A stretch of 64,000 bases of DNA from Portulaca oleracea (Eukaryota > Streptophyta > Magnoliopsida > Caryophyllales > Portulacaceae), in the NCBI GenBank assembly GCA_029582165.1, contig CM055884.1:10792537-10856536 (forward strand), given 5' to 3'. The notes under the pieces are model-generated. The model had not been told where the DNA came from. It ran no database searches and saw only the letters and a program-made list of their open reading frames with translations. Position numbers and translations under genes: made by a program. This document shows positions 11,499-52,145 of the stretch, in pieces. Within the stretch, counting starts at the first letter, position 1. Every line of letters starts with the position of its first letter.

Positions 11499-12515
11499 TT
11501 ATGGATCTAGGTGAAGCATTCCAAGCTCACGACGAATCAATGTAAACTGATCCTCTGGCAGTGGTTTGGTGAAGATATTAGCTAATTGATGATGAGTCAG
11601 GACAAATTCCAAACTGATAGGTCCTTTTTCCACATGGTCACGGATGAAGTGATGACGTATTTCAATATGTTTTGTCCGTGAGTGTTGCACAGGGTTTTTG
11701 GTGATTTGAATAGCACTCATGTTATCACACTTGATAGGCACATTTGTAAAGTAAAGACCGAGGTCCTCCATCTGGTGTGTGATCCATAAAATTTAGGCAC
11801 AACATGATCCTGCTGCAACATATTCTGCCTCAGCAGTCGAAAGTGCTACTGAGGTCTGCTTCTTAGATGGCCAGGAAACAAGTGAGGCTCCAAGCATTTG
11901 GCAACTTCCTATGGTGCTTTTTCTATCGACTTTGTAGCCAGAAAAGTCAGCATCGGTGTAACCACAGAGATGGAGATCTGGCTGTCGGGGGTACCAAAGG
12001 CCTAAACTTTTGGTTCTTGCAAGATATCGCAAAATTCTCTTGACAGAAGAGAGGTAAGATTCTTTTGGTGCACTTTGGAAGCGCGCACATAAGCAAACAC
12101 TAAACGTAATATCAGGACTACTTGCAGTAAGATAGAGAAGAGAGCTTATCATACCTCTATATAACTTTTCAGAGATAGGCTTACCTGTGAGGTCTGAATC
12201 AAGCTTAAGAGTGGAGGACGTCGGAGTTGAGGAGTGCTTGAGGTTTTCGCGCTGGTACTTTTTGAGGAGCTCCGAGATATACTTACTTTGATTCAGGAAG
12301 ATGCCTTCATGAGTCTGCTTGATTTGTAGGCCTATGAAGAATGTTAATTCTCCTACTAGGCTCATCTCGAATTCCACACTCATGAGGTGAGAGAATTCAT
12401 CAACGAGGAATGAATGCGAGGCGCCAAATATGATGTCATCAACATAGATTTGGATGATGATGAATTCCCCATTCTTTTCTTTAATGAAGAGTGTTTTGTC
12501 AATCTTGCCTCTTGT
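11499..12515 (-). pseudogene. Copia pol, C-terminal half: RT palm and RNase H
   Basis: Minus-strand frame with the Copia RT catalytic motif YVDDIIF, the GLQIKQ and ILRYL.RT blocks, then the RNase H signatures GYTDADFSG, KKQTSVALSTAEAEYVA and KTKHIEIRHHFIRDH-type strings (here SRTKHIEIRHHF). It ends in the usual LHLDP tail at 11499. A stop near 11771-11793 separates two halves that are otherwise collinear. Upstream, the frame breaks exactly at the insertion point 12515/12516; the interrupted protein resumes at 17560. The frame is nearly intact, so loss of function is due to scattered stops and the insertion. Confidence 0.88.
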
Positions 12516-12843
12516 TGATGTATGCAAGGTCGCTAAGATCAGAGTATTGACCTCACAATACACCACATTAACACACAACACACACAATTCTGGCCTCACA
12601 ACAGAGAATCAAGCACAAACACACCAAAACAGACCTCACAACAGAAAATCAATTACAACCTCCTCCAAAACAGAGCACAAACACCAATGAACAAATGGAT
12701 GAAATGGATGATGATGAAATGATGATCGGATGAACAAACTTACAATCAAACAGAAAATAGAGGATAGGCTTGAGCTCGAACTGATACAGGCACACCCCAG
12801 CTAGAACATCAAAGGCAATGGACTCAATCACCTCAATGGATAC

Positions 12844-13593
12844 TGAAGAATCTCAACTAGGTATGAGGACCTCAGCGTAATCGTCAATGAGGACCTCAAA
12901 TGTCAGCACAAGATTATTTTGTTTGAAAGACCAACCGAGCTATCTTAGGGAAGTACAAATCATATCCTAATCTTATCCCTTCCTCTAATTCTGAGATATG
13001 ATTGTAATAGTCTGCGTTTCCTTTTCAGATATCAAACGAAAAAGGAAGGAAGAATATGGCAAAGAAAGGAATCTCGTGGAAGATAGAGGATCATCTCAGA
13101 AAAGGAAACAATCCTGGACAATCGTTGCTCTCAAGGCTATAAATACCATCAAGCTTCATTCATACAAGTATCGATTTCCAAGAAAGAAAGTTCTGAGTGT
13201 AGGAGTATTTGAGTGAATATTCCGAGTGTAGCCATTCTTGTGTAGTGGTGAGTTTTGTGTAACCAGTGGTCATACTGGTGAGGATCTCTAGGGTCGTGAG
13301 TTCCAAGCTAAACAAGTGCCTCTTTGCTGTGTGAGGTCACTAGTTGTAATCGCCTCCACTGTGAGGCCTCATATTCAGAAGACCTCTGTTGTGTCTTCTA
13401 ATCCGGTAGGCTAATTGAGGACCTCACAAGTTCTCTTTTGTGCTGAGTTGTAACCTCCTCCTCTTTAGCACTTTTGATCATTCAATAAAGAAGTTATTTT
13501 TCATATAAAAGTGCTACTAACTTGGTTGTGTTGATGGAAGTGCAGAATTATTTTTATAACCCTAATCACCCCCCCCCCCCTCGGGTTATTTCA
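12844..13593 (+). repeat. 5' LTR of the nested Copia element
   Basis: TGAAGAATCTC...GGGTTATTTCA. A run of about 13 C residues sits just before the 3' end. Near-copies of the palindrome GAGGACCTC lie at 12865-12873 and 12889-12897. The 3' LTR at 16008-16786 is nearly identical, with a short insertion near 16355 that accounts for most of the length difference. Confidence 0.92.
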
Positions 13594-13637
13594 ATTGGTA
13601 TCAGAGCGGGTCCACAAATTCAAGAGTTTAACCACTC

Positions 13638-15661
13638 GTGGAAAAGATCATGGCCGCTATCAACACAAATGAAGCTCCTCAAGGACGCTCATGGACAATA
13701 GCTCCACTACTTTCTGGAGAAAACTACAGGTCGTGGAAAAGACAAATGGAGGTCTTCCTCAAGGACCAAGATGAGGACCTTTGGACTATGGTTACCGAGG
13801 GAGATTATCCCACTCCCACGAAGAAGAACAGTGCTGGTCAAGATGTCCCAAAGAAAAGATCTGAAATGACCAAGAAAGAGTTAGAGCAATTGAGAAAAAA
13901 TACTCATGCCCTAAACTTGATTTATTGCAGTTTAAATTTGAATGATTTTGAACGTATATCTAATTGTGAAACTGCGAAACAGGTTTGGGATTACTTGATA
14001 ACCTCATATGAAGGCACAAGTCAAGTCAAGGACACCAAAGTGGATATCCTTGTCCAAAAGTATGAGGACTTCAAAATGAATGAAAATGAGACTATTGAAG
14101 AGATGTTCAAAAGATTCATCAGCATTACCAACTACCTCATATCTCTAGGAAAAACCTACCCAAAAGAGGAACAGGTTAGAAAGGTCCTCCGATGCCTGCC
14201 TAGAAGAAAATGGGGTCCAAAAGTCACAACCATTGAAGAAGCTCAAGATCTCAAGGCCCTCAAACTGGAGGAACTCATTGGAAAACTATTGGCCTATGAG
14301 ATCCAATTGAGTGACCTCACAGAGTCTAAAGGAGTTGCCCTCAAAGCAACCAAGGATTCTGATGAGGAATCAGATGAGGATGAAGAAAAAAACAATGGCT
14401 ATGCTGGCAAGAGGCTTCAGAAAACTATACAAGAAAAATCCAAACTTTCGAGGCTACCTCAAGGATAGACAACATAGAAAACCAAAAGGTAAGACCTCCA
14501 TGAAAGATGAAACTGACTCCTTCACTTGTTATAGTTGTGGCAGCACAGAGCACTTGATTAGAGATTGTCCTCATGCGAGAAAAAATAGAGATAAAAGAAA
14601 CATGAGGCCCAGACCACAACAACGTAGAGCCATGCTTGCAACTTGGAGTGACAGTGACTCAAGTGAGGATAACAGTGACGTTGATGAAGTCGCAAATGTC
14701 TGCCTGATGACTCAAATGAATGAGGAACCAGAAACATCCTCACACCAAGAAGAGGTAAACATTGATGACCTCCTCAATCTCTCACCCTTACATCTCGCTC
14801 ATAAATGCTTGCATCTGTTTAAATATTCCAAATCTTTGATTGAAAGGGTCAAGTATCTTACCAAGCATGTTCAAAGTCTCAGTGAGGCCAATGATAACCT
14901 AACTTCTCAAAATGACCTCCTCTTCACAGAAAGCAATAGACTGTCTCTTGAGGTCAAAGACTGCTATAAAACCATCACTCAATTATCCAATGAGGCAGTC
15001 AATAATTCCCATCCTTACCAAAGCAAACCAGTCTCCACAAACCCCCTCTTCTCAACCTCAGACCGAAATTCCTACAAATCACCCTCCCAGAGGACCTCTC
15101 CTTCCCACACCCAATACCTCACCTCTCAAAAACTATCGGTCCAAAAGTCCTCCTTTCCATGCCAACAAAGGACCTCTCCTTCCTATCCCAAACATTCCAC
15201 CTCTCAAAGAAAATCATCATAGAGGACCTCCTATAGAAAATAAAATAAGGACCTCATCAAATTCCCTGTCTAAAGGGACTAGACCTCCGTGCATTACTAA
15301 AATCTGGGTCCCAAAGACCTCATTGCAACGATCTCATCCTTGGTTAAAGACCAAGAAAGGTATAGTGTCTTCTTTTACAGGTATGCCTCAAACACGGAGA
15401 TCCAACCAAGCTCTTCAAACTGAAAATCAACAAGAATGCAAGAGTGACCTTTGGAGACAAACTTCAAGACAAGATCCTAGACATTGGGAAGGTCGTGAAA
15501 CAACACCACCCGCACCTTTTGAGGGGGAGTCGTCTACTATAAGGACCTCAACCTATGCACAAGCTGTCAAATTGAGGGGGAGTCATATCATCCATCCTCC
15601 CTACATGTGGTCTCTCTCCTCCTCCCAGGTTCGTCAACTCACTGCATGCCTGGACCTCTGA
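13638..15661 (+). pseudogene. Copia gag (UBN2/DUF4219 type) with CCHC knuckle, running into a protease remnant
   Basis: The frame opens at the Met at 13638 (second Met at 13650) with the typical Sirevirus gag N-terminus (PLLSGENYRSWKRQMEVFLK) and runs to 14468. It then shifts to a second frame carrying the zinc knuckle CYSCGSTEHLIRDC (about 14528-14571) and an acidic and coiled-coil region (RVKYLTKHVQSLSEANDNL). The frame shifts again into remnants of the protease region, after which pol is deleted. Gag packages RNA into cytoplasmic particles. The parts present are long enough for a mobilisable gag-only derivative, but the frameshifts mean this copy cannot make a full gag. Confidence 0.85.
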
Positions 15662-16007
15662 TGCCCTCATCAGCATGGCCTCTCGAGCACCTCAAAATTT
15701 AATCAGGGTCTGGTCAAGGTGTCCTCATCATCTCCTTTCCTCCTATCCATCCTTCTTCTTCTCTATCTTCCTCTGCTTTTTGGCTACACAATTTAGTACT
15801 TATACTCTCCTGTTTCCCTTCATGCGAAAGACAAAAAGGTAGATATCCTTGATGCAGAATCAAACAATATGGTGAATCGTTGCTTGCTACTATATGATAC
15901 TCTATTACAAGAATGTTCTGTTGCATCTATTGTCCATATCATTGTACATTGAGAATGCATGTGTAGAAGCGAGATCCAGAAGTTTTGTCTTTCAAACAAA
16001 AGGGAGA

Positions 16008-16786
16008 TTGAAGAATCTCAATCGGGTATGAGGACCTCAGTATGTCGTCAATGAGGACCTCAAATGTCAGCACAAGATTATTTTGTTTGAAAGACCAACC
16101 GAGCTATCTTAGGGAAGTACAAATCATATCCTAATCTTATTCCTTCCTCTAATTCTGAGATATGATTGTAATAGTCTGCGTTTCCTTTTCAGATATCAAA
16201 CGAAAAAGGAAGGAAGAATATGGCAAAGAAAGGAATCACGTGGAAGATAGAGGATCATCTCAGAAAAGGAAACAATCCTGGACAACCGTTGCTCTCAAGG
16301 CTATAACTACCATCAAGCTTCATTCATACAAGTCTCGATTTCCAAGGAAGAAAATCGTTGTAAGAACTTTGTGAAAGAAAGTTCTGAGTGTAGGAGTATT
16401 TGAGTGAATATTCCGAGTGTAGCCATTCTTGTGTAGTGGTGAGTTTTGTGTAACCAGTGGTCATACTGGTGAGGATCTCTAGGGTCGTGAGTTCCAAGCT
16501 AAACAAGTGCCTCTTTGCTGTGTGAGGTCACTAGTTGTAATCGCCTCCACTGTGAGGCCTCATATTCAGAAGACCTCTGTTGTGTCTTGTCCAGAGGCCA
16601 ATTGAGGACCTCACAAGTTCTCTTTTGTGCTGAGTTGTAACCTCCTCCTCTTTAGCACTTTTGATCATTCAATAAAGAAGTTATTTTCATATAAAAGTGC
16701 TACTAACTTGGTTGTGTTGATTGAAGTGCAGAATTATTTTTATAACCCTAACCACTCCTCCCCCCCCCCCCTCTAGGGTTATTTCA
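16008..16786 (+). repeat. 3' LTR of the nested Copia element
   Basis: Follows polypurine caaacaaaagggagat. It ends in a run of C, then CTCTAGGGTTATTTCA, followed directly by the GATAC duplication. Confidence 0.92.
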
Positions 16787-17559
16787 GATACAAGCACACC
16801 ACCATTGAAATCACCAAGCTCTATACACACCACAAGGATTGCCAAATCCTTGATACTGAAGTAGAATTAACCAAGGATGAGAGTTTACGTCACTCACAAA
16901 CAAGAGGCTCAATCAAGGCACTCAAAATGCTATTGAATATCACTGAAATTAATGACCTCAAGCTGCCGATTACAATGTATATAAACCTAGGGTTGAGCTA
17001 GCTGATTAAGGGTTTCCCCTTGCTCAAGAAATTCCCTAATTAAGCATTAAGCTACTTAACTAATTTAGTAAGCTAATTAAGGCTCCTTACAAACTGGATT
17101 ACATCAAAATAAAAGGAAATAAAGATAACAAACGCATTTTCATTATTACATAGCTGTTAGTTCACCTCACAAGCTGGAAAAGTCCTCAACAGCTTAGAAA
17201 TGAAGTCTTCATGGAGGACCTCAATGCAGGATCACCTCACAAAACTGGAATATCCTCAACAGTTCAGAAGTGATGTCATCATAGAGGACCTCAGAACTGG
17301 CAAATATCTTTAATGAGCTGGAAAGTCCTCAACAGCTCTAAAATGAAGTCTTCAAAAGGCGGGTGAGGTCCTCAATCCAGAGATATGGAGTTAAGAAACG
17401 ACCTCACTGGCTGGCTGGTGTAGTTGGATGACCTCATGACTTGCTGGACCAGGGTTTGATGTTGCTGGTGATGTCCTTGATGCTGGTGTAGATGAGGTCA
17501 TGGTTGCTCTTGCTGGTTCTAGCTCTGGACTCTGATCTTCTGATGGAGGACCTCCATCA

Positions 17560-18402
17560 CTTTTGAAGTCGTTCTAAAGGAGAAACTTGTTGAGGCACTT
17601 ATACCAGGCTCTTGGAGCTTGTTTCAGCTCATAGAGAGCCTTATGCAGGCGGAAGACATGATCTGTATATGTGGTGTCCTCAAAGTCGGGCGGTTGTTCA
17701 ACATAAACTTCCTCAGCTAGATCCCCATTAAGAAATGCACTTTTGACATCCATTTGGTGTAGCTTTATGTTCTTGGCGGATGCAAAGGCAAGGAGGATCC
17801 TGATGGCCTCCAGGCGAGCAACAGGAGCAAAAGTCTCATCATAGTCGATTCCTTCTTCTTGATTGTAGCCTTTGGCGACCAGCCTGGCTTTGTTTCTGGT
17901 GATGGAGCCATTTTCATTCAGTTTGTTTCGATAGACCCATTTGACACCAATGATGATGATAAGGTCTGGGTTCTAGAGACCAGACTTTTCTTCTTTCAAA
18001 TTGGTTTAACTCCTCTTGCATGGCATTGATCCAACTTGGATCTAGCAAGGCCTCATTGTGGTGATTTGGCTCAATCTGCGAGACAAAGGCATTAAAGGCA
18101 CAAAAATTTCTTAAGGAGGACCTTGTGCGTATACTTGAGTTAATATCTGTGAGGAGATTATCAGCTGGATGAGCAGCTTTAAACTTGTATGTGACCTCTG
18201 GTTCTGGAGGAGCCTGAGGTGAGGACTGCGATGGGGAGGCCTGAGGAGATAGTGAGGCCTGAGGTGAGAATGCAGCCTCAGGTGTGAGAACAGGAGATGG
18301 TGAGGCTTGTGGATTTTTTTGAGTATGAGGGACATGAGAGAGCTTAAGAGGAGGCTCATCTTCACTGTCACTAACAGGAGTGCAGATGTTGGTTTGTCCC
18401 AC
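17560..18402 (-). pseudogene. Copia pol: N-terminal reverse transcriptase
   Basis: Minus-strand RVT_2 blocks in order: MQEELNQFERRKVWSL, then (after a frameshift near 17965) [47 protein letters not shown] and [13 protein letters not shown]. The frame meets a TAG near 17574 and is then cut by the solo LTR; the rest of RT is at 11499-12515. A Pro/Ser/Gln-rich linker (about 18170-18330) precedes RT, as is usual between integrase and RT in Copia. Confidence 0.88.
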
Positions 18403-19735
18403 AGATGCAGCCTCATCAAAGACAATATGGATACTTTCTTCTACAGACTTTGTGGATTTGAAGTAAACTCTGTAAGCTTTGCTTGTAGCTGAGTATCCAA
18501 CAAAAATTCCTTCTTCACTTCGAGCATCAAACTTGTTGGTTGGCCTTTTTCCATTGATGTGAACAAAGTATTTGCATCCGAGGACCTTGAGGTGACTGAT
18601 GTTTGGTGCCTTTCCTTTGAATAACTCATAGGGAGTCTTTTTCAGTATGGATCTGATAGTGCCCTGATTCAGGATTTAGTTTGATGCGTTGATGATTTCA
18701 GCCCATAGGAACTTTTGGAGGTTGTTTGAGCAGATAATTATTCTTGTCATGTCCTCCAGGGTTCGGTTCTTTCTTTCTACAACTCCAATTTATTGAAGGG
18801 TTCTTGGTGCGGAGAAATTATGAGTTATTCACGTTTCTGCACAAAATGCTCTAAACATATCCTTGTTGTCGAACTCCCTTCCATGATCTGTCCTTATAGC
18901 TTTGACAGAGCTTCCTGTGAGGATCTTGAGTTGTTTGTAGAGCTTTGAAAAATGTTCAAAGGCATCTATCTTGCTTTTCAAAAAAGAACACCCAGGTAAA
19001 TCTTAAAAAATCATCTATTATGACAAGGATATAGGAACTACCTCCAAGACTTTTATAAGGGATTGGACCACAGAGGTCCATGTGTAGGAGGTCAAGACAA
19101 TTTGAGGTGGTCACAAACTTGAGAGGTTTGAAAGAGGATCCGGTCTGTTTCCCTTTAGCACATGCATTACGAACCCGATCTTTTTCAGAGTTATGAGGAG
19201 GGAGACCTCGGACTAGGTCTGACTTATGCAACTTTTGTAATGTTTTCATGCTAACATGACCTAGGCGGCGGTGCCATATCCATGTTTCCTCAGTCCCAGC
19301 CTTAAGGCGAGAGAGGCAGTAAACTCGCTTAAATCTTTAACATAAACATTATTCATGCGATGACCTTGAAAAATATTTTGATGAGACTCTGATGTCACTA
19401 TACATGCATTTTTATCGAAACTGACTCTGTTACCTTTATCACAAAATTGAAAAATACTAAGAAAATTATACTCTAGACCTTCTACAAGATATACATCATT
19501 TAGAGAGTTGTTGAGGTCCTTACCGACCTTCCCAATGCCGAGGATCTTGCCTTGGCTTTTGTCTCCAAATGTAACCTTCCCTGTTTTGCTGGTTTTCAAC
19601 TCGCAAAATTTGGTTGGATCTTCGGTCAAATGGCGAGAGCAACCACTGTCCAAATACCACAGATCGTTGTGAGTTTTGAAGTATACCTGCATCAGAAGAC
19701 ATTATACCTTCCTTGGTTTTTGGCAGACAAGTTGT
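18403..19735 (-). pseudogene. Copia protease, GAG-pre-integrase and integrase, frameshifted
   Basis: The minus strand shows the aspartic protease motif YLDSGCSRHLT (about 19650), then the integrase core with its three acidic positions: LLHMDLCGP (about 19090), KAIRTDHGREFDN (about 18880) and GVVERKNRTLEDM (about 18770). The downstream C-terminal domain includes FDARSEEGIFVGYS. Several frameshifts and a stop just before the catalytic Glu block make it inactive. Confidence 0.87.
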
Positions 19736-19787
19736 GAGGTTAGGCTTGGGGATCCATATTTTGCCTACTTGAAAGAGCCTTGACGAT

Positions 19788-21345
19788 TTAAAGGATTTGG
19801 GTGAGGTGTTGTGAGAGGTCTTTTGAGTATGGGCTTCTGGACATTTTCTGTGATGTTGCTTTCGGAGGAGTCAGATGTGGAGTGGGAAGTAGAGGTCCTC
19901 TGGGAGAGTGATTTGCAGGAGCTTTGGACCGGGGGTGAGACAAGAAAGGAGGATTTGAGAGAATTGGTTTACTCTGATAAGGATGGGAATTGGTGACTGC
20001 CTCATTGTATAGTTGAGTGATGGTTTTGTAGCGATCTTTGACCTCAACGGATAATCTGTCATTCTCGGCAATTAAGAGGTCATTTCTAGAGTTCAAGCTT
20101 TCTATGGTCTCACTCAGACTTTTAACATGCTTTGTAAGATGCTTGACTCTTTCTATTAAAGATTTAGAGTATTTGAAGAGATGAAATAATTTATGAGCAA
20201 GATGTACAGAAGAAAGAGTGAGGAGGTCATCCATATTTACCTCATCTTGAGATGAGGTCGCGTCTACATCTTCATTGCTTTGAGCCATTAGACAGGCATT
20301 TTCCACCTCTTCAACATCACTGTTTCCTTCACTTGAGTCATTGTCACTCCAGGTGGCTAGCATTGCCCTACGATGTTGTTGTTTGGGCCTCATATTCCTT
20401 CTGTCCTTATTTTTTTTGGTGTGAGGGCAGTCTTTAACCAAGTGCTCTGAGCTGCCACAACCATAACAAGTAAATGGGTCATATTCCTCTTTCATTAGGG
20501 CTTTACCTTTAACTTTTCTGTTTTGCTCATCTTTGATGTAGCCTCAAAAGGTTGGATTTTTCTTGTATAATCTTCTGAACCCTCTTGCTAGCATTGTCAT
20601 TGTATCTTCCTCATCTTCATCTGATTCACTATCAGACTCACGTATTACCTTGAGGGCAATTCGTTTGGGTTTTGAGAGGTCACTCAGTTGGATCTCATGA
20701 GCCAGTAGTTTCCCAATGAATTATTCCAGTTTGAGGACCTTGAGATCTTGGGCTTCTTCAATGGCTGTAACTTTTTGGCCCCATTTTCTTCTCGACAAAC
20801 ATCTGAGGATCTTCCTAACTTGTTCCTCGTTGGAGTAGTTCTTTCCTAGTGACTTGAGGTGGTTAGCGATGCTGCTAAATCTCTTGTACATCTCTTCAAT
20901 AGATTCATTTTCTTCTATTTTAAAGGCCTCAGAATGTCCACTTTGATGTCCTTAACTTGGTTTGTGCCTTCGTATGAGGTCGTCAAGTAGTCCCAAACCT
21001 ATTTGGAATTTTCACAGTTAGAAACACATTCAAAATCATTGGAATTTAAACTGCAATAGATTAGGTTTAGAGCCCAAGTATTTTTTTTCTCAATGGTTCA
21101 AGCTCTGTAGCCGACATCTCAGATCTTTTCTTTGGGACATCCTTGTTATCACTGTCTTTCTTTGTGGGAGTAGGAAAGTCTCCCTCAGTGACTACAATCC
21201 ATAAGTCTTCATCTTGATCTTTGAGGAATATTTCCATCTGTTTCTTCCACATCCTATAATTTTCACCAGTAAGCAGTGGAGCTCTTGTCCATGAACGTCC
21301 TTGAGGAGCTTCATTTGTGTTGATAGCGGTCATGATCTTTTCCAC
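19788..21345 (-). pseudogene. Copia gag of the 13.6-kb element, frameshifted
   Basis: Starts at 21345 with the same N-terminus as the nested copy (AINTNEAPQGRSW, then ENYRMWKKQMEIFLK). It breaks near 21067, continues in other frames, and shows the zinc knuckle CYGCGSSEHLVKDC at about 20430-20470 followed by an acidic and coiled-coil segment (LIERVKHLTKHVKSLSE). Near identity with 13638-15222 shows that the two opposed elements belong to one family. Confidence 0.87.
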
Positions 21346-21375
21346 GAGTGGTTAAACTCTTGAATTTGTGGACCC

Positions 21376-21387
21376 GCTCTGATACCA
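21376..21387 (-). promoter_or_regulatory. Copia primer-binding site (tRNA-Met type)
   Basis: The plus-strand string GCTCTGATACCA is the reverse complement of TGGTATCAGAGC. It sits two bases from the LTR end at 21390, as expected for a minus-strand element. Confidence 0.92.
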
Positions 21388-21389
21388 AT

Positions 21390-22177
21390 TGAAATAACCC
21401 TAGAGGGGGTGAATAGGGTTGTATAGAAAATTCTGCAACTTAATCAACACAAGGACGTTAATAGGACTTTTATAACTGAATAATACTTCTTTATTGATGA
21501 ATTCAAAGTGCTAGGAAAGAGAGGATGTTACAAACTCGACAATGTCAAGGATAGTGAGGTCCTCAACAAATGCTTACAAAGGCAGAGAATTCAAAGCGAA
21601 TCTTTGCGGCAGTGGCCTCACAGCAGAGGCAAGAAGATAATCTCGAACTCACTAAAATGAGGTCACTCACTCACTTTAGCTATACGACCCAGAGTTCCTC
21701 ACTAGTTAACACTCAACTGGTTACACAACTCACCATTAATTCCCTAGTGGTTACAACTCAGAAAACTTTCTCACAAAGTTTCTTACAACTTAGAATTCTC
21801 AAAGAACTTCCTACACACGATTTGCTTGCTTAGAAATCATTACTTGAATAGGAGAGTGTCATTGCATTTTATACTCGCCGATCTTCAATAGCAACGGTTT
21901 TAGGTGGATTGTTTTCTTGAGCAGGTTGATGCTTTCCATTCTGAATTCTGATCCTCAATCTTCAATTGTTTGGAAGATTGAATCCGTTAGCCTTGATTTC
22001 GAAATTTACATGATATTGATTTATATTAATACAGGATATTTCAAGGAATATGCTAATAGATATGATGAGATATTTTTGGAAACTTCCCTGAATCTTTTTT
22101 GCAATTTTTCCTTCTTTCAATCAAAATAATATTGTGCGTTTGGAGGTCTTTGGAGGAAAGCTGCAGTTGCTTCTTCA
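21390..22177 (-). repeat. 5' LTR of the 13.6-kb Copia element
   Basis: 788 bp, TG...CA, flanked outside by AAATG. Compared by eye with 8607-9396 it is nearly identical, with scattered substitutions. Confidence 0.9.
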
Positions 22178-22641: not shown

Positions 22642-22906
22642 CAAGTATATAGGATAAATTACTAAAAGGTACCCTCTGTTTTGCTATATCTATTATTAGG
22701 GGACCATATTATTGAAATCTATTTTTAGGTACCCTGTGTTTTGTAGTATCTAATTTCTAGGTGACAATTGAACTTTTCATATTTGCATTTTAGACCCTGC
22801 TTGACTTTCAGTTTTATTTTTGGTCCTTAGTGGTTAAAAATCCTATTTTAGTACGTTTAATAATTCCGTTTATATTTTCCTGCTTTATTTTTGGTCCTTT
22901 TTCATT

Positions 22907-22920
22907 TGGTATCAGAGCCA
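22907..22920 (+). promoter_or_regulatory. Caulimovirid minus-strand primer site (tRNA-Met)
   Basis: TGGTATCAGAGCCA, complementary to the 3' end of plant initiator tRNA-Met, the usual zero-point of caulimovirid genomes. It lies 59 bases before the first viral ORF with no LTR in front of it, consistent with a pararetrovirus leader. Confidence 0.8.
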
Positions 22921-22978
22921 TGTGCCAAACTTCACTAATTATAATTAGTGAATTTAAAAACATATTATTTAGTATTTA

Positions 22979-23395
22979 ATGACCTCAACCAATTGTCCTT
23001 ATCTTGATTATGCTCATATCCTCCATAATCCAGATCAGACAAGCGGGGTAGGAGCTCAGTTAAATTCTATCTTTGATTTAATTTTAGACCTTAAAAAAGA
23101 TTTAGAAGCACTTAGAAGTGAAGTAAGAGCTTTAAATAAGTTTGCTCATACTTCCCATATAAGTTTGTTAAACGATTCAAGACATCGAGTGCTTGAGTAT
23201 AAAAGTTTAAGTAATATCAGTACTACTTATAAAAATAAATATCCTTTCCAAAATCAACAAAACAAAGTTCCTTTTCCTTTGCATTCTCTTAAGAAAAACG
23301 CACCAGAACTGGTAAAGGCTGCTAAAAGAGAAGAAGAAGAAGAAGAATCTCCTAATAATCAAGAAAGAGATGACGAAGGAACTTCAAACTCTTAG
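22979..23395 (+). CDS. Endogenous pararetrovirus ORF1, small coiled-coil protein
   Basis: 138 codons, intact, first ORF after the primer site. The middle (LILDLKKDLEALRSEVRALN) is a heptad-like amphipathic helix; the C-terminus is a charged tail with a run of Glu. Its size, position and coiled coil resemble the small first ORFs of several caulimovirid genera (virion-associated or unknown function). I do not recognise a specific family. Its end overlaps the next ORF by 26 bases in another frame, a compact viral arrangement. Confidence 0.6.
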   Translation: MTSTNCPYLDYAHILHNPDQTSGVGAQLNSIFDLILDLKKDLEALRSEVRALNKFAHTSHISLLNDSRHRVLEYKSLSNISTTYKNKYPFQNQQNKVPFPLHSLKKNAPELVKAAKREEEEEESPNNQERDDEGTSNS

Positions 23396-25922
23396 TTTGA
23401 AGGAACTCCATGGGTTATTCGAAATAGAGCAAGAAGGAGTAGCTCTTAATAATATTATGAGTATTATTACCGAAAAATAGATATTGGTAGAAGAGGAGGT
23501 TAATAATGAGATTAAAGAGGTCAATTATGTGCTAATTGAAGAAGAAATCTACCAACAAATGAACCTAATCAAATTAGAAGATATGGAGTTTATACCTCTA
23601 CACGAGATTAGAGAGAGATTAAGCAAAATATCCGAGAAAAATGAAGTTGGAGAAGAACTTGAAACAAACCAAGTCCATGTAATACCATTACCTCAAAATT
23701 TTGGTGAATCTAACCGTAGTAATAATAGATATTTCCAACCAAGAAATAATACGGCTGGACGAACTAAGCCATTTTATTTTAAAACCTTATATCAACCTCT
23801 TCATGAAAAAGTAAGTCTTACTCCCATAAGTCAAACTGGGTACATGTTAAATCTAGATGGAGTCCGTAACAGGGAAGAAATATTTGAACATTGGAAGAGG
23901 GGTATGAGTAGTGTTCTCAATCTAAATGCCAACTGGACATCTGAAAACTTTCTAAATTATTTAGAACACAGTTTTTCAGGAACAGTGGCAGATTGGTATG
24001 ATTCTAGTTCTGAAGAGGCTAAAGCTATATTGAGAGTAGTAGAAAATCCTACTGAAATGTTTAAAGCCCTGTGCAAAGAAATTTCTATGGAGTTTATTGG
24101 TGTTAATCTAGAAATGGAAGAAAAGATAAGAGAATATCAACGAAAACTTGTTAGTATAGAAATTCTAGATATGAGATATCTAGAACATTATATTAATGAG
24201 TTTAGTTACTTTTATTATAAAATTGGCCATAATCCTACGAATTTGGCTATGTTTTATGATAAACTACCTAATCCTATAAATTCTATTATTCAAGAGAAAT
24301 TTGAAGAATGGTTGAAAAAGAATCCTGAACATACCGATACTCTTGGTATGAGATGTGCCTTTATTAGAAGATGGGTTACCGATCAACGTTTAAATATCAA
24401 AAAACATCAGACCATGAAGAAACAATTCCTATTCTGTTGGGATACTCCACATAAATGGGGAGCCTCTAAACAAAAAAGATGTTATAAGAAAAAGGCTTTT
24501 AATAAACAAAGAGGTGAAAAACTCAGGAGAAAGCAATATACCAACAAACGAGCCCCAAAGAAAAGAAGATTTTTCAGAAAGAGTACTTATTGCCCCACGG
24601 GCAAAAGCAATTGTAAATGTTGGGCTTGTGGTGAAGTTGGTCACGATGCAAATGAGTGTAAAAACAAGAAAAATCATAAGTTGATAGAAACTTTAGGAAG
24701 TCTTGAGTATGACGAAATAACGGAAGAAGAAGCCTTTGAACTTGTCTTTAGCAATAACAAAGGTATTGTTGAAATCGTCATAGATGATGAATCTGATTCC
24801 GATTATGAAGATACTAGTCATATGATGGAAGGTAATTCAGTAAGTCTAGGAGACTTACAAGGAGAGGAATTCATAGTAGATGATGAAAATCATGGTGAAG
24901 AAGTTAAAGGTGATTGGGTAATTCCAATTATCCAAAAGGATATGATCTACAAAAAATCCATCTTTCAGTTAAAATCAAAATATGTTTGTGAGATGATGGA
25001 GGGAGACTTAGAGATTAAAGATTGCGAGTACGATGTTGGAGAAGTAAATCTAATCAATTGGGATAATATTCTGAGGCACAACAAGGATAGAAAATATAGA
25101 TATATCCATATAGGAAGTGTGCAAATCCAAATAACTCCATTACAACATTACGGCAAGGATATAGATCTTTATGCATTGTTGTGTGATATTAGGCACAATA
25201 AATTTCACAATCAGATTATCACTGGCATAAAGACTAATTTACGTAATGGATCAGTTGGATTCAATTGCAGACCAGGATATTATGTTAGCCTTAAAGACGA
25301 CTTTGCCAAAAACTTTTTGTCTCTAAAGATAAAAACAGTGGGTATGGATATGAAACAAGGTGGTTATCCACTTAGGATATTCTGGAAAATTATCTACAAG
25401 TTAGATAATACCATAGATCCAAAGACAAAAGTTACTATGATAGAAGCTGAAAAGTTTGAAAGTCCTGAGCCTAAACAGAAAATTCAGAGGATAAAATCAA
25501 ATCCTCAAGATATCAAGATAGAACGCTCTTGGATTGATAGTTTCTCTAATCCAACCAAAATTGGCAAGAAAAATGTTATTAAGATTAATGAAGATGGTAA
25601 AATCACCATCAGACCTCAATTGTTAAAGACTAGATCTGATTGGGGAGAAAGCTCATCAGTTAGAGATAAACTAGTATCAAAAGATGATGATGCTATAAGT
25701 ATGACTTCAAAAATGAGTAGAATGAGTTTCGATTCTGCAAGATCTTGTGTAGATAGAACAGCCAGCCTAGATAGAAAGATCATTGGCTACAAAACTAGGA
25801 CTATCAATGAACCTATATATGAGGATGAACTAGCTAAAGAAGCGCCAGAACTGAACATGCATATAGAAAAAATCATTATGAGGTCACCAAAACCAACCCC
25901 AATAGCATCTATATTCCTATAA
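23370..25922 (+). pseudogene. Endogenous pararetrovirus coat protein-movement protein ORF with an in-frame TAG
   Basis: The frame opens at an ATG at 23370, meets TAG at 23478-23480 and stays open in phase to 25922. Domains in order: a capsid-like region (about residues 100-320 counted after the TAG), a Lys/Arg-rich stretch, the RNA-binding knuckle C-X2-C-X4-H-X4-C (24618 onward), an acidic linker, then a 30K-superfamily movement-protein-like region (about 24990-25590). Coat upstream of movement in one ORF is the order known from Solendovirus and Cavemovirus; badna-, tungro- and florendo-like viruses place movement first. The TAG is either an inactivating mutation or a readthrough point; 812 codons are otherwise intact. 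It overlaps the next ORF in a different frame. Confidence 0.7.
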
Positions 25923-26756
25923 AAGTATGCATTGAAGGAATTGACAAATATGAACTATGTGCATACATAGATAGTGGATGTTCTGTATGCTTTGGCAAGA
26001 AGACACTATTTCCTGAATATTTATGGAAAACAGCAAAAAATCCTTTGCAAGTGAGAATTGCGGATAATAGTGTTATGACCCATAGTGAAGCTATTGAAGG
26101 TTTAACTATAGAAATGGGAGGAGTCAAGTGTGTAATTCCAATACTTTGGGCAACAAACCAACCATCACATGATATGATCATTGCAACTATGTGCATACAT
26201 AGATAGTGGATGTTCTGTATGCTTTGGCAAGATGACACTATTTCCTGAATATTTATGGAAAACAGCAAAAAATCCTTTGCAAGTGAGAATTGCGGATAAT
26301 AGTGTTATGACCCATAGTGAAGCTATTGAAGGTTTAACTATAGAAATGGGAGGAGTCAAGTGTGTAATTCCAATACTTTGGGCAACAAACCAACCATCAC
26401 ATGATATGATCATTGGAAATAACTTCCAAAGATTATATTATCCTTGTACCCAAACCATTCAGCAAATTATCTTAACAATAGATGGTCATTCCGTACCTAT
26501 TAAAAAACTACAACAGGCATATACTCACCAAACAATAGATTTTTCGCGCAACCAGCGTGGTGAGAGGGTAGTGCCAACTCAAAAAAAAGTAGCATTTACT
26601 ATTTCACTTCTAGAGTTATCTGTTAAAGAACAAATTGAAAAACAACAAGAAGAGCTATGTAAAGAACTCTATTCTGACAACCCTTTAAAATTTTGGGATA
26701 AAGATAAAACCTACGCCATCACACTTAATGCATCCCAATACCATTATCAGGGTTAA
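25923..26756 (+). pseudogene. Endogenous pararetrovirus aspartic protease region with a 232-bp tandem duplication
   Basis: Contains the retropepsin motif YIDSGCS and the downstream MIIGNNF string. Bases 25953-26184 are repeated almost exactly at 26185-26416. The period of 232 is not a multiple of three, so the copies lie in different frames and the protease is disrupted. In the family this domain opens the separate reverse-transcriptase ORF. The duplication is absent from a normal genome and arose during or after integration. Confidence 0.75.
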
Positions 26757-27432
26757 ACAGATGGTGTATACACACCAAGATATCCAAGAATTTAAGGAAC
26801 AGATAAAAGAGCTTTTAGATAAAAAGCTTATCAGGGATAGCAAGAGTAGACATACAAGTCATGCGTTCATGGTCAGAAATCATGCTGAATAGAAAAGAGG
26901 AAAAGCTAGAATGGTCATCAACTACAAAAAGCTTAATGATAGCACAATCTTCGATGGATACTATATTCCAAACAAAACAGTTCTCTTCAATAGAATCCAA
27001 GGAGCCTTATGGTTCTCTAAAATGGATTGTAAGAGTGGTTATTGGCAGATAAAAATGGATGAAGAAAGCATTCCTTTAACAGCCTTTAGTGCTCCTCAAG
27101 GACATTATGAATGGTTAGTCATGTCATTTGGTCTTAAGAATGCACCTCAAATATTTCAGAGGAGAATGGATAAGATCTTTAAAGATCTCAGTCATTGTTG
27201 TTTGGTGTATATTGATGATATCCTTATTTTCTCTAAAACTATTGAACAACACAAGGATGATCTCTTAGCGGTAACTCAAAAGTGCATCAATCATGGAATT
27301 GTCCTTGGAAAAAACAAGTGTGTCTATGCTGAGAAAGAAATAGAATTTCTTGGATTACAAATTAAAGCTGGACAAGTCATTCTACAAAAACACATCCTAG
27401 AAAAAATAGAAAAGTTTCCTGAAAAAAATTGA
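26757..27432 (+). pseudogene. Endogenous pararetrovirus reverse transcriptase
   Basis: The frame has shifted before 26757 and there is a TAG at about 26888. Clear RT blocks follow: MVINYKKLND, FSKMDCKSGYWQI, YEWLVMSFGLKNAPQIFQ and the catalytic YIDDILIFS (about 27208), then EFLGLQI. The frame closes at 27432 just before the connection domain. The layout (YIDD, SFGLKNAP) is of the Caulimoviridae/Metaviridae type; the surrounding gene order favours Caulimoviridae. Confidence 0.85.
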
Positions 27433-28056
27433 GAATAGAAAACAGCTAGAAAGATTTTTAGGGTGTCTCACCTATGCATCAGATTTTATCAAGGATCTAG
27501 CAAAGTTGAGAAAGGCTTTGCAAAGAAAACTTAAAAAAGATGTTGAGTGGAATTGGACTCTGGATGATTCATTGCTTGTAAGGAATCTTAAAAATTTATG
27601 TCAAAACCTTCCTGTCCTTAATTTTTCTAACGAAGAAGATGATTTGATTCTTGAGATGCTAGCAATGAGCACTGGAGTGCAGTACTCAAAATCAAAGAAG
27701 GAGAACATCTCTGCAAATATTGCAATGGAAGTTTTAATAAGGCTGAGTGTAATTACACAACCATGGAAAAAGAAATTCTTGCTATCATAAGAGGAATTGA
27801 AAAGTTTTTAATCTTTTTAGCTCCAAAAGAATTTCTAATCCGAACTAATTGCAAAGGCATACTTGGCTTTGTCAAAAAGAATTTATCAAATATGCAAGCG
27901 CAAGGGAGGCTCCTGCGTTGGCAATTATGGCTTAACCAGTTCTCTTTCTCTATTGAACACATACAGGGTTCGAAAAATTCATTAGCAGACAGCCTGACAC
28001 GAGAATTAGCCAATGGAATTCAACATGGTGAATGTCTCGCGCCGACAAGCGGATGA
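27433..28056 (+). pseudogene. Endogenous pararetrovirus RNase H, frameshifted
   Basis: Connection and RNase H blocks continue in two frames: an N-terminal part to about 27760, then MEKEILAIIRGIEKF, FLIRTNCKGILGF and IEHIQGSKNSLADSLTRE to 28056. The Asp expected in the tether/RNase H pocket is partly replaced (TNCK where T-D is usual), another sign of decay. The end overlaps the next ORF by 44 bases. Confidence 0.8.
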
Positions 28057-29050
28057 AGCAGAACACCGGTTACCCGAATTACTAGGAAGGGTGTCACCTC
28101 CTGGTAGATTCGTTTTAAGTAATCTTAGAAAAAATAAAAAGAAAAGATGCAGGTTTATTTTTAGTTATGTTGAATATCTGATAGCTGAGAAGTTTAGTCT
28201 CGATGAACTTCGGATTAACTATCTCGAAAGTTGTTATGATATTCAGAGTGTTATTACAAGAAAAGCCCAGAAAAATTGGTTTCACGAGTGGTATGCATCG
28301 GTCATGGATCCCTTAAGATATTATAACCGTGAAGTCTGGAAAGCTTGGGGAAAAAGAATTAGTTTCTTAGGCTTTTCAGGAGTAGGAAAAGTACACTTCT
28401 GCCCGAATCCTACCCCTCCAAATGATCCAATCATGAAAGCTTGGGAATATGATATGGTAAGAGAATTCTGGACCAATGAAGGTCACGTTGTCCCTAATCC
28501 AAAAGGAACATTATTTCCAAGATTTACAAAATTCCAGAAATTTGTATTTAAAAGGGTGTGCAAAATCCATTCACCAGAAGTAAGAAAAGTTGCAGGATGG
28601 CCGATTACTTTCTATGAATGTGTTAATATTGAGTACAATGGAGATAAGATCAATCCTGCCCATTATCTGATTAGAGTCAAAGACACATCTGGAGGATATC
28701 TTACAAAAGAAGAATGGTTTCCAGAAAAAAGAGAAAAAATAATTCATCCTTCAAAGGCAAGAGCAACTGGATTTTACAAGTTAATGCATCATCTATGGAT
28801 GGATATTGATAGAGGATATAGGGTTATCCATTGTAGCAACACTACCTTCACCTATCCAAAGAAGTTTGACCAACTTGTTGATCTTAACGGAGCTAAATCT
28901 GAAGATGTATATGAATATTTGTTAAAAATCGGAGTTGGAGAATTCTTATCCGCAGAAGGAAAATCTTATCTTCAAGAGCTCTTTGATAAATACAATCCAT
29001 TGGAGCAAGATAAGGGAGAAGATTTCAATATGTACAATTTGAGAGCATAG
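28013..29050 (+). CDS. Endogenous pararetrovirus terminal ORF, possible transactivator/viroplasmin position
   Basis: 345 codons, intact, overlapping the RNase H end. Caulimoviruses, soymoviruses, cavemoviruses and solendoviruses carry a transactivator/inclusion-body protein gene at this genomic position, just before the main promoter. The protein is basic and aromatic-rich, has no membrane segment, and carries short recognisable phrases (PKGTLFPRFTKFQKFV, GWPITFYECVNIEYN). I cannot confirm the transactivator fold by eye, so the functional label is positional only. It is the best-preserved long ORF of the integrant after the coat-movement ORF. Confidence 0.5.
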   Translation: MEFNMVNVSRRQADEAEHRLPELLGRVSPPGRFVLSNLRKNKKKRCRFIFSYVEYLIAEKFSLDELRINYLESCYDIQSVITRKAQKNWFHEWYASVMDPLRYYNREVWKAWGKRISFLGFSGVGKVHFCPNPTPPNDPIMKAWEYDMVREFWTNEGHVVPNPKGTLFPRFTKFQKFVFKRVCKIHSPEVRKVAGWPITFYECVNIEYNGDKINPAHYLIRVKDTSGGYLTKEEWFPEKREKIIHPSKARATGFYKLMHHLWMDIDRGYRVIHCSNTTFTYPKKFDQLVDLNGAKSEDVYEYLLKIGVGEFLSAEGKSYLQELFDKYNPLEQDKGEDFNMYNLRA

Positions 29051-29089
29051 AGCATCTTTGGCGGCCCCACAAGCATTATGACCTGCAAG

Positions 29090-29420
29090 CTACTGTGGTA
29101 CCACTAATAAAAAAGAGTGGTTGTTATTTAAAGTTTGTACTATTGAGTCTGTAAGAGTCACGTGTTTGTACTGTAGACATCTATATCTGTAATAATGATA
29201 CTGAAGCCACTAGGGCATCCAAGTTGTGTGAAGCTCCTCTATAAAAGGGGAAGTAAGTGTGTGTTGAAGGCACGGTCATTTGGGTAATCTTGAGCAAAGA
29301 GAGAAATTAGGAGTCACCATTTCTCCATAAGCAAGCTTCTCTGATGATCTTAGAAGTCTAGTTCTCATTAAGCATTTCCATTGTAATATTTCCATTTTCA
29401 AGCTTTCAATAAAAGAAGTT
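29090..29420 (+). promoter_or_regulatory. Pararetroviral genomic promoter and poly(A)-signal region
   Basis: Downstream of the last ORF. A TATA box (ctcctctataaaagggg, core at 29240-29247) in a context like the CaMV 35S core promoter is followed about 165 bases later by caataaaag (about 29407), a poly(A)-type signal near the start of the putative leader. A promoter followed closely by a poly(A) signal is what a terminally redundant pararetroviral RNA requires. Upstream cis elements were not resolved. Confidence 0.6.
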
Positions 29421-29889
29421 TCCCAGTAGGGAACGTTATCCAATTGAACCTTATGCTTTAAATATTGTAATTTCTTGATTAAAGTTCCACTATCCTTTAA
29501 AAACTAAATAGACTGAATTAGTGACTACGGTCTGAGGTAGGAAACGAAACAGATCTGTGCTGTGCTTGATCTAAGGTTGGCGGGGTTGAGATTAGCCATC
29601 TCTGTAAACTGGAAGCTGAAGAACGCCGGAGATCCAACGCAACTAAGTTCAGGTAACGGTCAAAACTCACTAATTAAGTTTAATTAATTTTGCTAAGCAT
29701 GGTGGGCCTATAACCATAGAAAATATAATATCTAAGGTATAAGTAGTAGATTGTGATAATTAGTACCATTAAAGTCATTATAAAAGAGTTAATAATGCTT
29801 ATTTGAGCTTGTTTGCATAAAAACCTTAAAAAAATCATATTATTGCAAAGAGGTCCCTATCTAAGGTCCTTCTTTATAAATTTGGAAAG
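29421..29889 (+). other. Putative viral leader fragment; no gene
   Basis: Non-coding DNA between the putative RNA start and the right inverted arm. Together with about 22780-22906 it would form the leader of the circular genome, so both ends of the linear copy fall in non-coding leader. Confidence 0.45.
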
Positions 29890-30050
29890 AAAAAAATCAC
29901 CTAAAAATAGTTTCTAAAGAAAGTTTGTCCCCCAAAAATAGTTTTCAAAAAACAGAAGGTACTTGACAATCATTTCTGAAAATATTGTCCCCAAAAAATT
30001 AGTTTCCATAAAATAGGAGGTACCTAAAAGTTAAAAATTGCAAGTATATA

Positions 30051-32198: not shown

Positions 32199-34940
32199 AT
32201 GGCGGAAATCGAAGATAATGGAAGCAGTGTTGAATCTTCAACCCAAGAAAATTCCGTCGAAATCGTCCTCAAAACTATCGGCCCTAGTCGTCCTTCTCGG
32301 ATCAAAGTTCCTCATCGCATCAAGGTATCCCCCTTTTGGTTTTGACCTAATTTGTTCGCAGATTCTTGCTGGGTACCATTTTAGGGTTGTAGAGTTCTCG
32401 ATTGATTTCTCGAAGCAATGGTGATCAATCGGGAAATTAGGGTTTTTTTCTGGCTGTTGGCTGATTCTTACTGCATATCATTTCAAGGTCGATTGATTTT
32501 TCGGAGCAATGGTGATCAATCATGAATTTAGGGTTTTTTCTGGGTGTTGGCTGATTCCTACTGGGTATAATTTCAATGTCGTAGATTTGTCGATTGATCT
32601 TTTGAATCAATGGTGGTCGATCATGAATTTAGGTTTTTTTCTGGGTGTCATAAAGCTGCGATCTTTGGAGTATCTGCTGAATAGAATTCAATGGAAGACT
32701 TTGATTTTGAGGTTTATTTTTCCTGGTGAATGTTATATTGTTATGCTCTGAATTATGACATGCATCCATTTTTTTATTTGGGGGTTTCAATTTATCAATT
32801 CTGTGAAAATAAATCCTTAGCAGGGTTTTTCAAGTTGTGAAAAAGAAAATAAACTAAAATTGCTGCAATTCAACTGCTGAATATATTTCCCTAAGCATTT
32901 TTTTTTTTGCATTTTCTTGAACATTTTTTGCACATTTGTGTATTTGTTTGTTTGATGCTAACATGCCAATATGAGTGTGATGATTTAAATTTACATACAA
33001 ATTTCTATTCCTTAACTTTGTGTGTTGATCAAGTTTGAAGCTAGTTCGCGGTATTTTTGAACTGGCTGCAGTTGATGAAATGATAGCATTCCGGACTTGG
33101 AAACAACAAATCTTTAGAATACTTCAGCTTGCTTTTCCCGTAGTTTTGTTAGTAATGCTTGTACCCTCTATATTTTTTGCAATAGGTCCGCGATTTGCGA
33201 AAACTAATTGCCGATGACAAACAATTGCCGTTTGAGAGCTTGAGGCTTATATCACGGGGAACCGCATTGCACGATACCAAAAATGGAGAAGATATATACA
33301 TCAAACTTGCCGATGGAGGTATTTTGTTCTTCTTGTAGGTTTTTTCGGTTTGATGTTTGCATTAGTTCCTGTTCTTGTACACACCAAACGCGCGTTATAT
33401 AGATGTACGACCACACCTTTGATAGAGTAACATCTAATGGTTTGTCCGTGCTAAAGAAAAATGAGGACTTAGAGGTGAAGAGGGCATATGACTTGCTGAA
33501 AAATATAAATTGGGCGTTTCTCATTGCTTAATACTATTCTCTTTCCGATGTTTATCGTCCCCGTTTATGTTTCAGATTCCCTCATTGTAGCAGTGAGACC
33601 TAAGGCCCCGCCGAAGCATATTCGAGCAGGATACGATGACAATGATGAGGAAGATGATTTGGTGAGAACAGTGAATCAGTATTTACTATTTACATCAACT
33701 CCTTTTGTTAGAGACAGATTTTCGATAATCACTTTCCCTCGATCTGCCTTAACACGATGCATCCTGATCGGTTTTTCAGAAGTTCCAGCCTCCGGAAACA
33801 GCAAGTGGGTGGAAGTGGAGACTCTTTTGCATTTTACATGATAAGTTGAAGCTTCCTGGTTAGTACCTAAATTAGGGTGTGTTCGGCAAAACTACCGCTG
33901 CGGGAAATTTCTCTGAGTTTGAGTGTGAAATAATGGGGCCCGCCTAAAATTTTACCTGCCCATTAAACACAACCAAACACAGAGAAATTTAGCAACCAAA
34001 CGCTCGGTAAATCATACACAACATAAGCCATATAGAGTTGTGCTGATCGATGCTTCTTTTTTCTTTTGATAGATATCGTTTTGATCGCAATTTTCTCTCT
34101 CAGTTTAAAGGCATGGGCCTTTGTCATCCTGTGGTTTATACTGGCTCCAATTGCTCATAAATGGGATTTGGGACCTATATATGTAAGCCCTCCTTACTAA
34201 CTTCCATGATCATACAACTTTTCTGGCTTCGTTACCTTTCACTCGTTATTTTTCTGTAAAGCGATATATGATATGAACCGATAAACAAGACCCAAGCTGC
34301 AAGCTGCGGAATTCCAATTAGCAGGAACTAAGTTTTTGTGTTTCCGTGTTGATTTTGTTGCCATTGTCAGATAATTGCAACCGGATTCGCGATTATCTTC
34401 TTAAATCTCGGACATCGACAAGAAGGCGAACTGAGGTATGAATCAAAATAGTCCCTGAAGTTATCGTAATTAGACCTGGTCAGTGGACCGGGGACCCACC
34501 GAACAGACCCGAACATTTTACCAAAAATAAATGTTCAGGTCATTTGGAGTTTGAACATTTATTTCGGAAATTGGGTTACAAATGAAAATTGACACAATTT
34601 TAAAAAGGATATATACATTGCCTGGCCGACCCGCTGACCCAACCCACAACTTGTAGGGTCATGGTCAGCCGGCATGACCCGTCTGTGGGTCGGGTTGGGG
34701 TCCCGTGATTGCTGACCGACCCACAATTTTATCGATTCTACCCTAAACTAAAGCTAACCTTATGGGTAATGTATGACCCTTTTGTTTTTGATCAAGCAAA
34801 CTCGAGCACGAATTTGATATTTTCTTTCTTTGCATGGAAACTGCAGTGCATACTCCATCTTCAATGAGGATTTCAGAGAGCTTCCGGGAACACTGAATGC
34901 AGAGCGCCTCGATAGAGACATTCGAACGGGTCAGCTTTGA
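32199..34940 (+). CDS. SAYSvFN-domain protein with ubiquitin-like N-terminal region (7 exons)
   Basis: Exons: 32199-32324, 33186-33318, 33576-33661, 33780-33858, 34073-34182, 34371-34435, 34847-34940. All junctions are GT-AG and phases join cleanly to give 230 residues. Residues about 18-118 are ubiquitin-like (VRDLRKLIADDKQLPFESLR, then GDSLIVAVRPK), followed by an acidic linker (DDNDEEDD). Two hydrophobic segments (about 143-166 and 176-192) flank the short loop HKWDLGP. The C-terminus has the signature SAYSIFNEDFRELPGTL (200-216). Animal relatives (SAYSD1) act at the ER in translocation-linked ubiquitin/UFM1 quality control; the plant role is not established. Exons show no disruption, so the gene looks functional. 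Introns 1, 4 and 6 have taken up repeats. Confidence 0.9.
32370..32650 (+). repeat. About 100-bp tandem triplication in intron 1
   Basis: Three diverged units with cgattgat.t.tcg.agcaatggtgatcaat and tagggtttttt.ctgg.tgttggctgatt phrases, at about 32360-32460, 32461-32570 and 32571-32650. They lie just after exon 1 of the SAYSvFN gene. Confidence 0.8.
33876..34000. mobile_element. Short MITE-like insertion in intron 4
   Basis: Starts gggtgtgttcggcaaaac and ends with inverted cattaaacacaaccaaacac and related strings. The terminal motif is shared with hAT-type MITEs elsewhere in the window (50838). Confidence 0.45.
34466..34745. repeat. GGGTCGGGT-type fold-back repeat in intron 6
   Basis: Inverted G/C-rich phrases (gaccggggacccaccgaac... 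and ...gggtcgggttggggtccc) around an AT-rich centre. It resembles the fold-back at 5870-6541 in composition and layout. Confidence 0.5.
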
Positions 34941-52144: not shown

Positions 52145-52145
52145 T

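Follow-up and report, generated by a model that had tools for sequence, protein, structure and literature searches.

Results

A viral genome between inverted arms

The window analyzed here is a 64,000-nucleotide (nt) stretch of Portulaca oleracea DNA (assembly GCA_029582165.1, contig CM055884.1, positions 10,792,537 to 10,856,536 of the forward strand), and our subject is a unit at window positions 22652-30040, on C17 of the 1.13-Gb genome. This unit is a decayed caulimovirid provirus enclosed between imperfect inverted arms. An earlier note, made from the letters of this DNA, had described inverted arms and an exact 10-bp flanking repeat, and both are present. The repeat, CAAGTATATA, occurs once at each edge of the unit (22642-22651 and 30041-30050) and nowhere else in the window (chance mean, 0.25). 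The arms pair imperfectly, over 46 nt at 76% identity (22723-22768 and 29984-30029); when the outer 150 nt of the two ends were aligned locally, the score was 46, whereas 200 dinucleotide shuffles reached at most 29. The features of the unit are listed below, with element positions abbreviated el, open reading frames ORF, and amino acids aa; arm types A and B and virus-free element types C and D are described in the sections that follow.

22642-22651, no strand: target site duplication, left copy, CAAGTATATA, from exact repeat search
22652-22768 (el 1-117), plus strand: left arm, apparently a transposon-derived terminal inverted repeat, common to virus-free C and D elements
22769-22906 (el 118-255), plus strand: 3' part of a putative viral leader, in A and B virus copies and unmatched by the C and D elements compared
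22907-22919, plus strand: putative tRNA-Met primer binding site TGGTATCAGAGCC, a motif read from sequence
22979-23395, plus strand: ORF 1, 138 aa, no family
23484-25922, plus strand: coat protein domain followed by movement protein in a single 812-aa ORF (Pfam PF22909 and PF01107)
25953-26416, plus strand: 232-bp tandem duplication (identity, 99%), which the window has and the other fetched copies spanning this region lack
26181-26756, plus strand: A3 (caulimovirus) protease region (Pfam PF02160)
26911-27432, plus strand: part of the reverse transcriptase (RT) (Pfam PF00078)
27763-28056, plus strand: part of RNase H (Pfam PF17917)
28013-29050, plus strand: terminal ORF, 345 aa, with one metagenome relative at about 40% identity
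29678-30040 (el 7027-7389), plus strand: right arm, the part homologous to C-type transposons; its outer part, from 29884, is unlike between A and B types
29873-29881, plus strand: TATA-like box inside the right arm, pointing outwards, i.e., towards the primer site if the genome is circular
30041-30050, no strand: target site duplication, right copy, CAAGTATATA, from exact repeat search

The gene set of the Caulimoviridae (RT-RNase H, A3 protease, coat, and movement genes in one genome of 7-9 kb) is present, with Pfam matches above the cut-off. The interior order given in the earlier note, from coat-movement through protease, RT, and RNase H to a terminal ORF, agrees with the Pfam results, except that the terminal ORF has no Pfam match (its AlphaFold model has a predicted local distance difference test score, pLDDT, of 36). 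The Pfam scan likewise assigned no family to ORF 1, and none of the seven ORF pieces that it covered contains a domain of a transposase or an integrase. On the 3' side of the coat-movement ORF, the polymerase region of the window copy is split into several frames; gene pieces were analyzed separately, with no frame repair. The best solved-structure match of the RT part is an "Enzymatic polyprotein" (8r0s; E value, 1.6e-55). A further protein search from the unit gave one relative, with 75% identity over 66% of the query, and a search of viral contigs with the RT piece gave none. We take TGGTATCAGAGCC at 22907-22919 as a putative tRNA-Met primer site. In the genera Cavemovirus and Solendovirus, coat and movement proteins are fused, the polymerase occupies a separate ORF, and TAV is the last gene. 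The gene order of the unit agrees with this layout, though the terminal ORF lacks a Pfam match; TAV in these genera is also described in PMC5902531.

A family of units with target site duplications

Other loci in this genome also carry arm-virus-arm units, and their arms are of two types, A (as in the window) and B. Genome DNA was searched with the left arm, an RT piece, and the left edge, and the best 40 of 811, 426, and 166 candidates, respectively, were scored. In all eight of the best left-arm loci besides the window, virus follows the arm and the match starts at arm base 1 or 5; the units have fixed ends. The best 40 of the 426 RT candidates are all 95-100% identical, and the unit is present in many copies. 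Edges were read at 30 further viral loci, namely, 10 RT-list loci not on the scored arm list and 20 left-edge loci (out of the 40 scored). Their left ends are type B in 26, a misfit in 1, and not seen in 3; a B right arm is present in 16 of the 23 right edges examined. The edges of B units match the window unit from about el 41, weakly at first, up to about el 7230. Some virus copies (L009/L024, L010/L023, and L013, on C16, C9, and C25) are interrupted by kilobase-long stretches unmatched to the unit.

For 20 loci, 7 of type A and 13 of type B, both ends could be read, and 12 of these carry an exact duplication of 9 or 10 bp that is specific to the locus and outside simple repeats. At the A loci, the exact duplications are CAAGTATATA in the window, GGCTTAAGT at L010, CTCATTTTTC at L012, and TAGAAATCC at L016; at eight B copies, they are TTTATTAATT, GGTAGAAATT, CCATATCTA, TATTTTAAAT, TAAATTTAAT, TTTTATTAAC, CATATTATTG, and ATAGTTTTAA. 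One more exact duplication, at L009, lies inside a (TA)n tract. In a flank test of 17 loci, 11 had exact duplications, and re-paired flanks gave 0 exact ones in 2000 shuffles. The arms and virus were thus inserted as a unit, and the loci that the earlier note had suggested looking for, with arms plus virus and different 9-10-bp duplications, exist. Segmental duplication as the source of the copies is ruled out for the 12 loci with exact duplications because flanks and duplications differ between loci. According to the consulted part of PMC3310237, Mutator-like elements (MULEs) leave target site duplications of 9-11 bp and have terminal inverted repeats of typically 100-500 bp with promoters inside. 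Exact duplications within that size range, outside simple repeats, are present at 12 of the 20 loci.

Virus-free elements share the arms

Whether elements with the same arms exist without the virus was another question raised by the earlier note, and we found two such types. Five of six lower-ranked left-arm matches that were fetched have a second, inverted arm and no virus; these D elements measure 838-944 bp in four cases, with exact duplications in two (9 and 10 bp), 8/9 matches in two, and one in a simple repeat. Type C comprises six virus-free elements of about 640 bp without later inserts, in which the left arm is paired with the sequence of el 7027-7389. Exact 9-bp duplications flank two of them (L030 and L032) and are not evident in the other four. 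Because virus-free C and D elements carry the arms, some with 9-10-bp duplications, the arms look transposon-derived, and they share ancestry with the arms of these elements. As for MULE-like terminal inverted repeats, those of B units span about 100 nt in register and those of D elements 234 bp, whereas A arms are weaker and out of register.

The 234-bp terminal repeats of D elements are matched by C left ends (235 bp) at 84-90%, whereas virus units retain only about the outer 117 bp of this repeat, followed by leader sequence that is missing from the C and D elements compared. This points to a C/D structure that predates the joining with the virus and to replacement of the inner part of an element by the virus, although the arm trees by themselves leave the direction (C/D first or virus first) unsettled. 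That C elements arose from virus units simply by deletion is disfavored because their left 235 bp match the D repeat, whose inner half virus units lack. Moreover, the outer tips point away from the virus, which places the virus inside the element rather than the element inside the virus. At L018 (C7:8687000-8688800), a D element with a 10-bp duplication adjoins a stretch resembling the right part of the virus unit (el 6841-7163), which places its insertion within or next to an element of C or virus type.

Divergence of arms and interior

We compared the arms with the interior among copies. Mean arm distances are 8.4% (left) and 8.8% (right) among A copies, against 4.4% in RT, and 6.3% (left) and 5.8% (right) among B copies, against 3.0% in RT and 4.4% just 3' of the primer site; in either type, the arms are thus roughly twice as divergent as RT. 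Among C elements, differences amount to 11-13.5% in the inner right and left arm and to 5.3% in the outer right arm, and D elements differ by 3.5% in the left arm. Between types, A and B arms diverge more than the interior does, mainly 3' of the TATA-like box and 5' of the primer site, a region that would be the leader, where arms may have been exchanged by template switching. When A and B units are aligned, the left junction recurs, and the inner right arm is common to both. For eight A copies, the interior tree accommodates the observed arm variants better than it does permuted labels in three of the four segments (only 2, 15, and 15 of 1000 permutations were as good), which suggests that the arms were mostly inherited with a replicating viral source. 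The RT tree is star-like, with a median end branch of 0.012. At plant substitution rates of 0.7-1.5e-8 per site and year, the insertions would be roughly one to two million years old.

Substitution patterns before and after insertion

Codon positions were compared between the window copy and other type-A rows, at most nine for each gene piece. When the coat, movement, protease, RT, and terminal genes are taken together, substitutions shared between copies fall on codon positions 1/2/3 as 56/43/177 (64% third), whereas private substitutions in the same five genes fall as 226/207/278 (39% third). The ratio of silent to replacing substitutions is 175:97 for shared and 235:434 for private changes, and stop-bearing sites number 4 shared versus 42 private. 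RNase H has few shared sites (2/1/5). Methylation hot spots are disfavored as the cause of the codon bias because the third-position excess of shared sites appears not only in CG/CNG transitions (21/21/57) but also in other transitions (24/16/84) and transversions (11/6/36). In an RT set of 29 copies of both arm types, the direction is the same and the contrast smaller (11/6/26 shared, 43/29/57 private). Indels in the ORF pieces comprise 103 types, of which 7 are shared, each by 5-7 copies.

The pattern of the shared substitutions is that of purifying selection on the coat, movement, protease, RT, and terminal genes. The four shared stops are taken as parallel changes, since the copy pairings that they imply are mutually incompatible and disagree with the interior tree. 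Because shared substitutions are mostly at third positions, private ones far less so, and nearly all indels are private, we read the copies as insertions from a coding-intact, replicating source under selection, each of which then decayed largely on its own.

Arms in the position of a viral leader

A search of the last 989 nt of the unit with four strict TATA patterns gave a single match, at 29873-29881. With this match, the 35S-like promoter of the earlier note is plausible, as a motif and not as a proven promoter. In a circular genome, the order would be the TATA-like box (29873), the right arm tip, the left arm tip, the primer site (22907), and the ORFs. The arms are predicted to pair strongly as RNA in all seven copies tested (z, -5.0 to -8.1); for the window arms, z is -7.3. 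Several caulimovirid genera have a leader stem-loop between the RNA start and the tRNA-Met site, the origin of which has been guessed to be an inverted repeat (PMC5902531, in the part consulted). The arms occupy the place of this stem-loop, and we infer that they are leader stem and transposon ends at once.

Neighboring features

Elsewhere in the window, pieces of a Ty1/copia-like retrotransposon lie in inverted orientation at 12881-21409 (gag and zinc-knuckle matches, with an RVT_2 match at 11793-12599), together with near-identical direct repeats resembling long terminal repeats (LTRs) at 12881-13580 and 16045-16766. Short hairpin inverted repeats like those of miniature inverted-repeat transposable elements, with arms 78-88% complementary and 36-109 nt apart, are found at 43678-44028, 52143-52693, and 54206-54429. 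A 60-nt repeat occurs in three diverged copies, spaced by 91 and 101 nt, at 32397-32648.

Discussion

The model that best accommodates these results, to which we assign a probability of roughly 60%, is a caulimovirid whose leader was built from the ends of a Mutator-like transposon and which was inserted in trans by a host transposase. A C-type Mutator-like (fold-back) element would have come to surround a caulimovirid genome, with the resulting chimera persisting as a virus thereafter. The two arms of its circular DNA would face each other between promoter and primer site, where they may form the stem of the pregenomic RNA leader while also serving as transposon ends. A host transposase, presumably Mutator-like and acting in trans, would cut at the outer tips, and the whole genome would be inserted as a linear unit with a 9-10-bp target duplication, after which the insert would decay. 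Candidates for this enzyme are abundant in the host, where the best 150 of 3121 MULE-domain candidates were scored, none of them tied to these ends.

The earlier note had offered two possibilities, of which the second was a transposon that captured and perhaps moved a whole viral genome. Capture of a single viral genome by a Mutator-like element, whose DNA transposition then multiplied it as passive cargo, could account for arms with target duplications at many loci, for the presence of the same arms on virus-free elements, and for an ORF 1 without clear codon bias. Such cargo would not be expected to leave shared substitutions rich in third positions in the coat, movement, protease, RT, and terminal genes and private ones far less so, and the seven shared indel types among 103 give no sign that dead copies were parents. 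We therefore consider passive multiplication unlikely, and the mechanism should change from a transposon that spreads a captured virus to a virus that carries transposon ends and was inserted by them. The note itself had reasoned that arms belonging to the viral leader, or to a common flank of every copy, would speak against its interpretation. This is probably the case in that the arms behave as a leader, but they behave as transposon ends too.

That double behavior bears on two further explanations. If the arms were an ordinary leader hairpin, with the genome linearized at its tip and inserted through staggered breaks without Mutator transposase, C and D elements would be by-products. The position and pairing of the arms do match the leader stem-loop of the family, yet D elements share the ends without any viral interior and have longer repeats than virus units, and the 9-10-bp duplication fits the Mutator rule. 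Among the integration routes proposed for caulimovirids are break repair, LTR-retrotransposon machinery, and, as a suggestion, a hijacked transposon-derived integrase (PMC10377300, in the part consulted); the first two would not obviously give a 9-10-bp duplication, and we regard the ordinary-hairpin account as improbable. Alternatively, in line with the first possibility of the earlier note, the virus may have repeatedly entered preexisting fold-back elements, for example by homologous recombination, and the duplications would then have originated with those elements. C and D elements without virus but with 9-10-bp duplications exist, A and B arms differ from each other more than the interior, and the low divergence of C elements in the outer right arm (5.3%) and of D elements in the left arm (3.5%) means that age alone fails to separate them everywhere from virus-bearing arms. 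Repeated entry is nevertheless hard to reconcile with a left junction that recurs in A and B units and an inner right arm common to both, with B arms that differ by 5.8-6.3% among copies when C elements differ by 11-13.5% in the inner right and left arm, and with arm variants that track the interior tree in three of four segments; we consider it very unlikely.

Several observations weigh against insertion of a virus by its transposon-derived ends. At four of the 20 both-end loci, the duplication is only partial (7/9 or 8/9): L014, L013 (judged by visual reading), and two B copies, of which one lies in poly-A. Three loci have no duplication, one with a misfit left end and one adjoining a TA repeat; all duplications were read from occupied loci. 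In the outermost left arm, agreement with the interior tree is weak (93 of 1000 permutations as good), and arm type changes four times on the RT tree (bootstrap range, 3-5; well-supported branches force one change), so either arms were exchanged or the tree is weak. Shared sites in ORF 1 (11/7/13) show no clear codon bias, and private sites also have some third-position excess, both overall (39%; one class, P = 0.0013) and in the 29-copy RT set. No autonomous element with these ends is among the sequences compared. Abutted B arms with a spacer of 0-10 bp, the trace that a circle would leave, have no exact match in the genome, in a search that covered the B arms. Finally, promoter and leader are read from sequence only.

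The closest known system is Teratorn, a piggyBac-herpesvirus fusion of fish, in which a whole viral genome likewise lies between transposon ends with target duplications; Teratorn, however, encodes its own transposase, is of the piggyBac type (TTAA), and contains a large herpesvirus (PMC10175614, as far as consulted). The purslane unit instead combines Mutator-like ends with a reverse-transcribing caulimovirid, its leader would coincide with the ends, and no transposase domain is found in the ORF pieces scanned. Pack-MULEs and other nonautonomous Mutator-like elements resemble it in their long terminal inverted repeats, 9-11-bp duplications, and foreign interior (PMC3310237), but Pack-MULEs carry pieces of host genes, whereas the unit described here is one family of near-complete viral genomes whose interior evolved under coding selection as a virus. 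Endogenous caulimovirids in general are likewise decayed proviruses of high copy number that contain genes for coat, movement, protease, and RT, and the consulted part of PMC10377300 makes no mention of fixed ends with 9-10-bp duplications and Mutator-like terminal repeats. Our literature search, which covered titles and the beginnings of abstracts and left most subscription papers and preprints outside, found no report of a caulimovirid between Mutator-like ends.

By what route caulimovirids get into chromosomes and rise to high copy number is described as an open question in the parts consulted of PMC10377300 and PMC10175614. For this family, defined ends and target duplications replace random repair with a specific, testable mechanism. 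We see even odds that the source was a free-living pararetrovirus with an RNA leader hairpin of Mutator ends, for which integration by a hijacked transposase was a regular, site-defined step of the life cycle, as in retroviruses but without an enzyme of its own. If the model is true, the purslane unit would represent, alongside Teratorn, a second kind of virus-transposon fusion, for which ends suffice and no enzyme is required, and the caulimovirid leader stem-loop would be tied to a transposon in at least this lineage. It also suggests a route by which such viruses may enter and spread in plant chromosomes.

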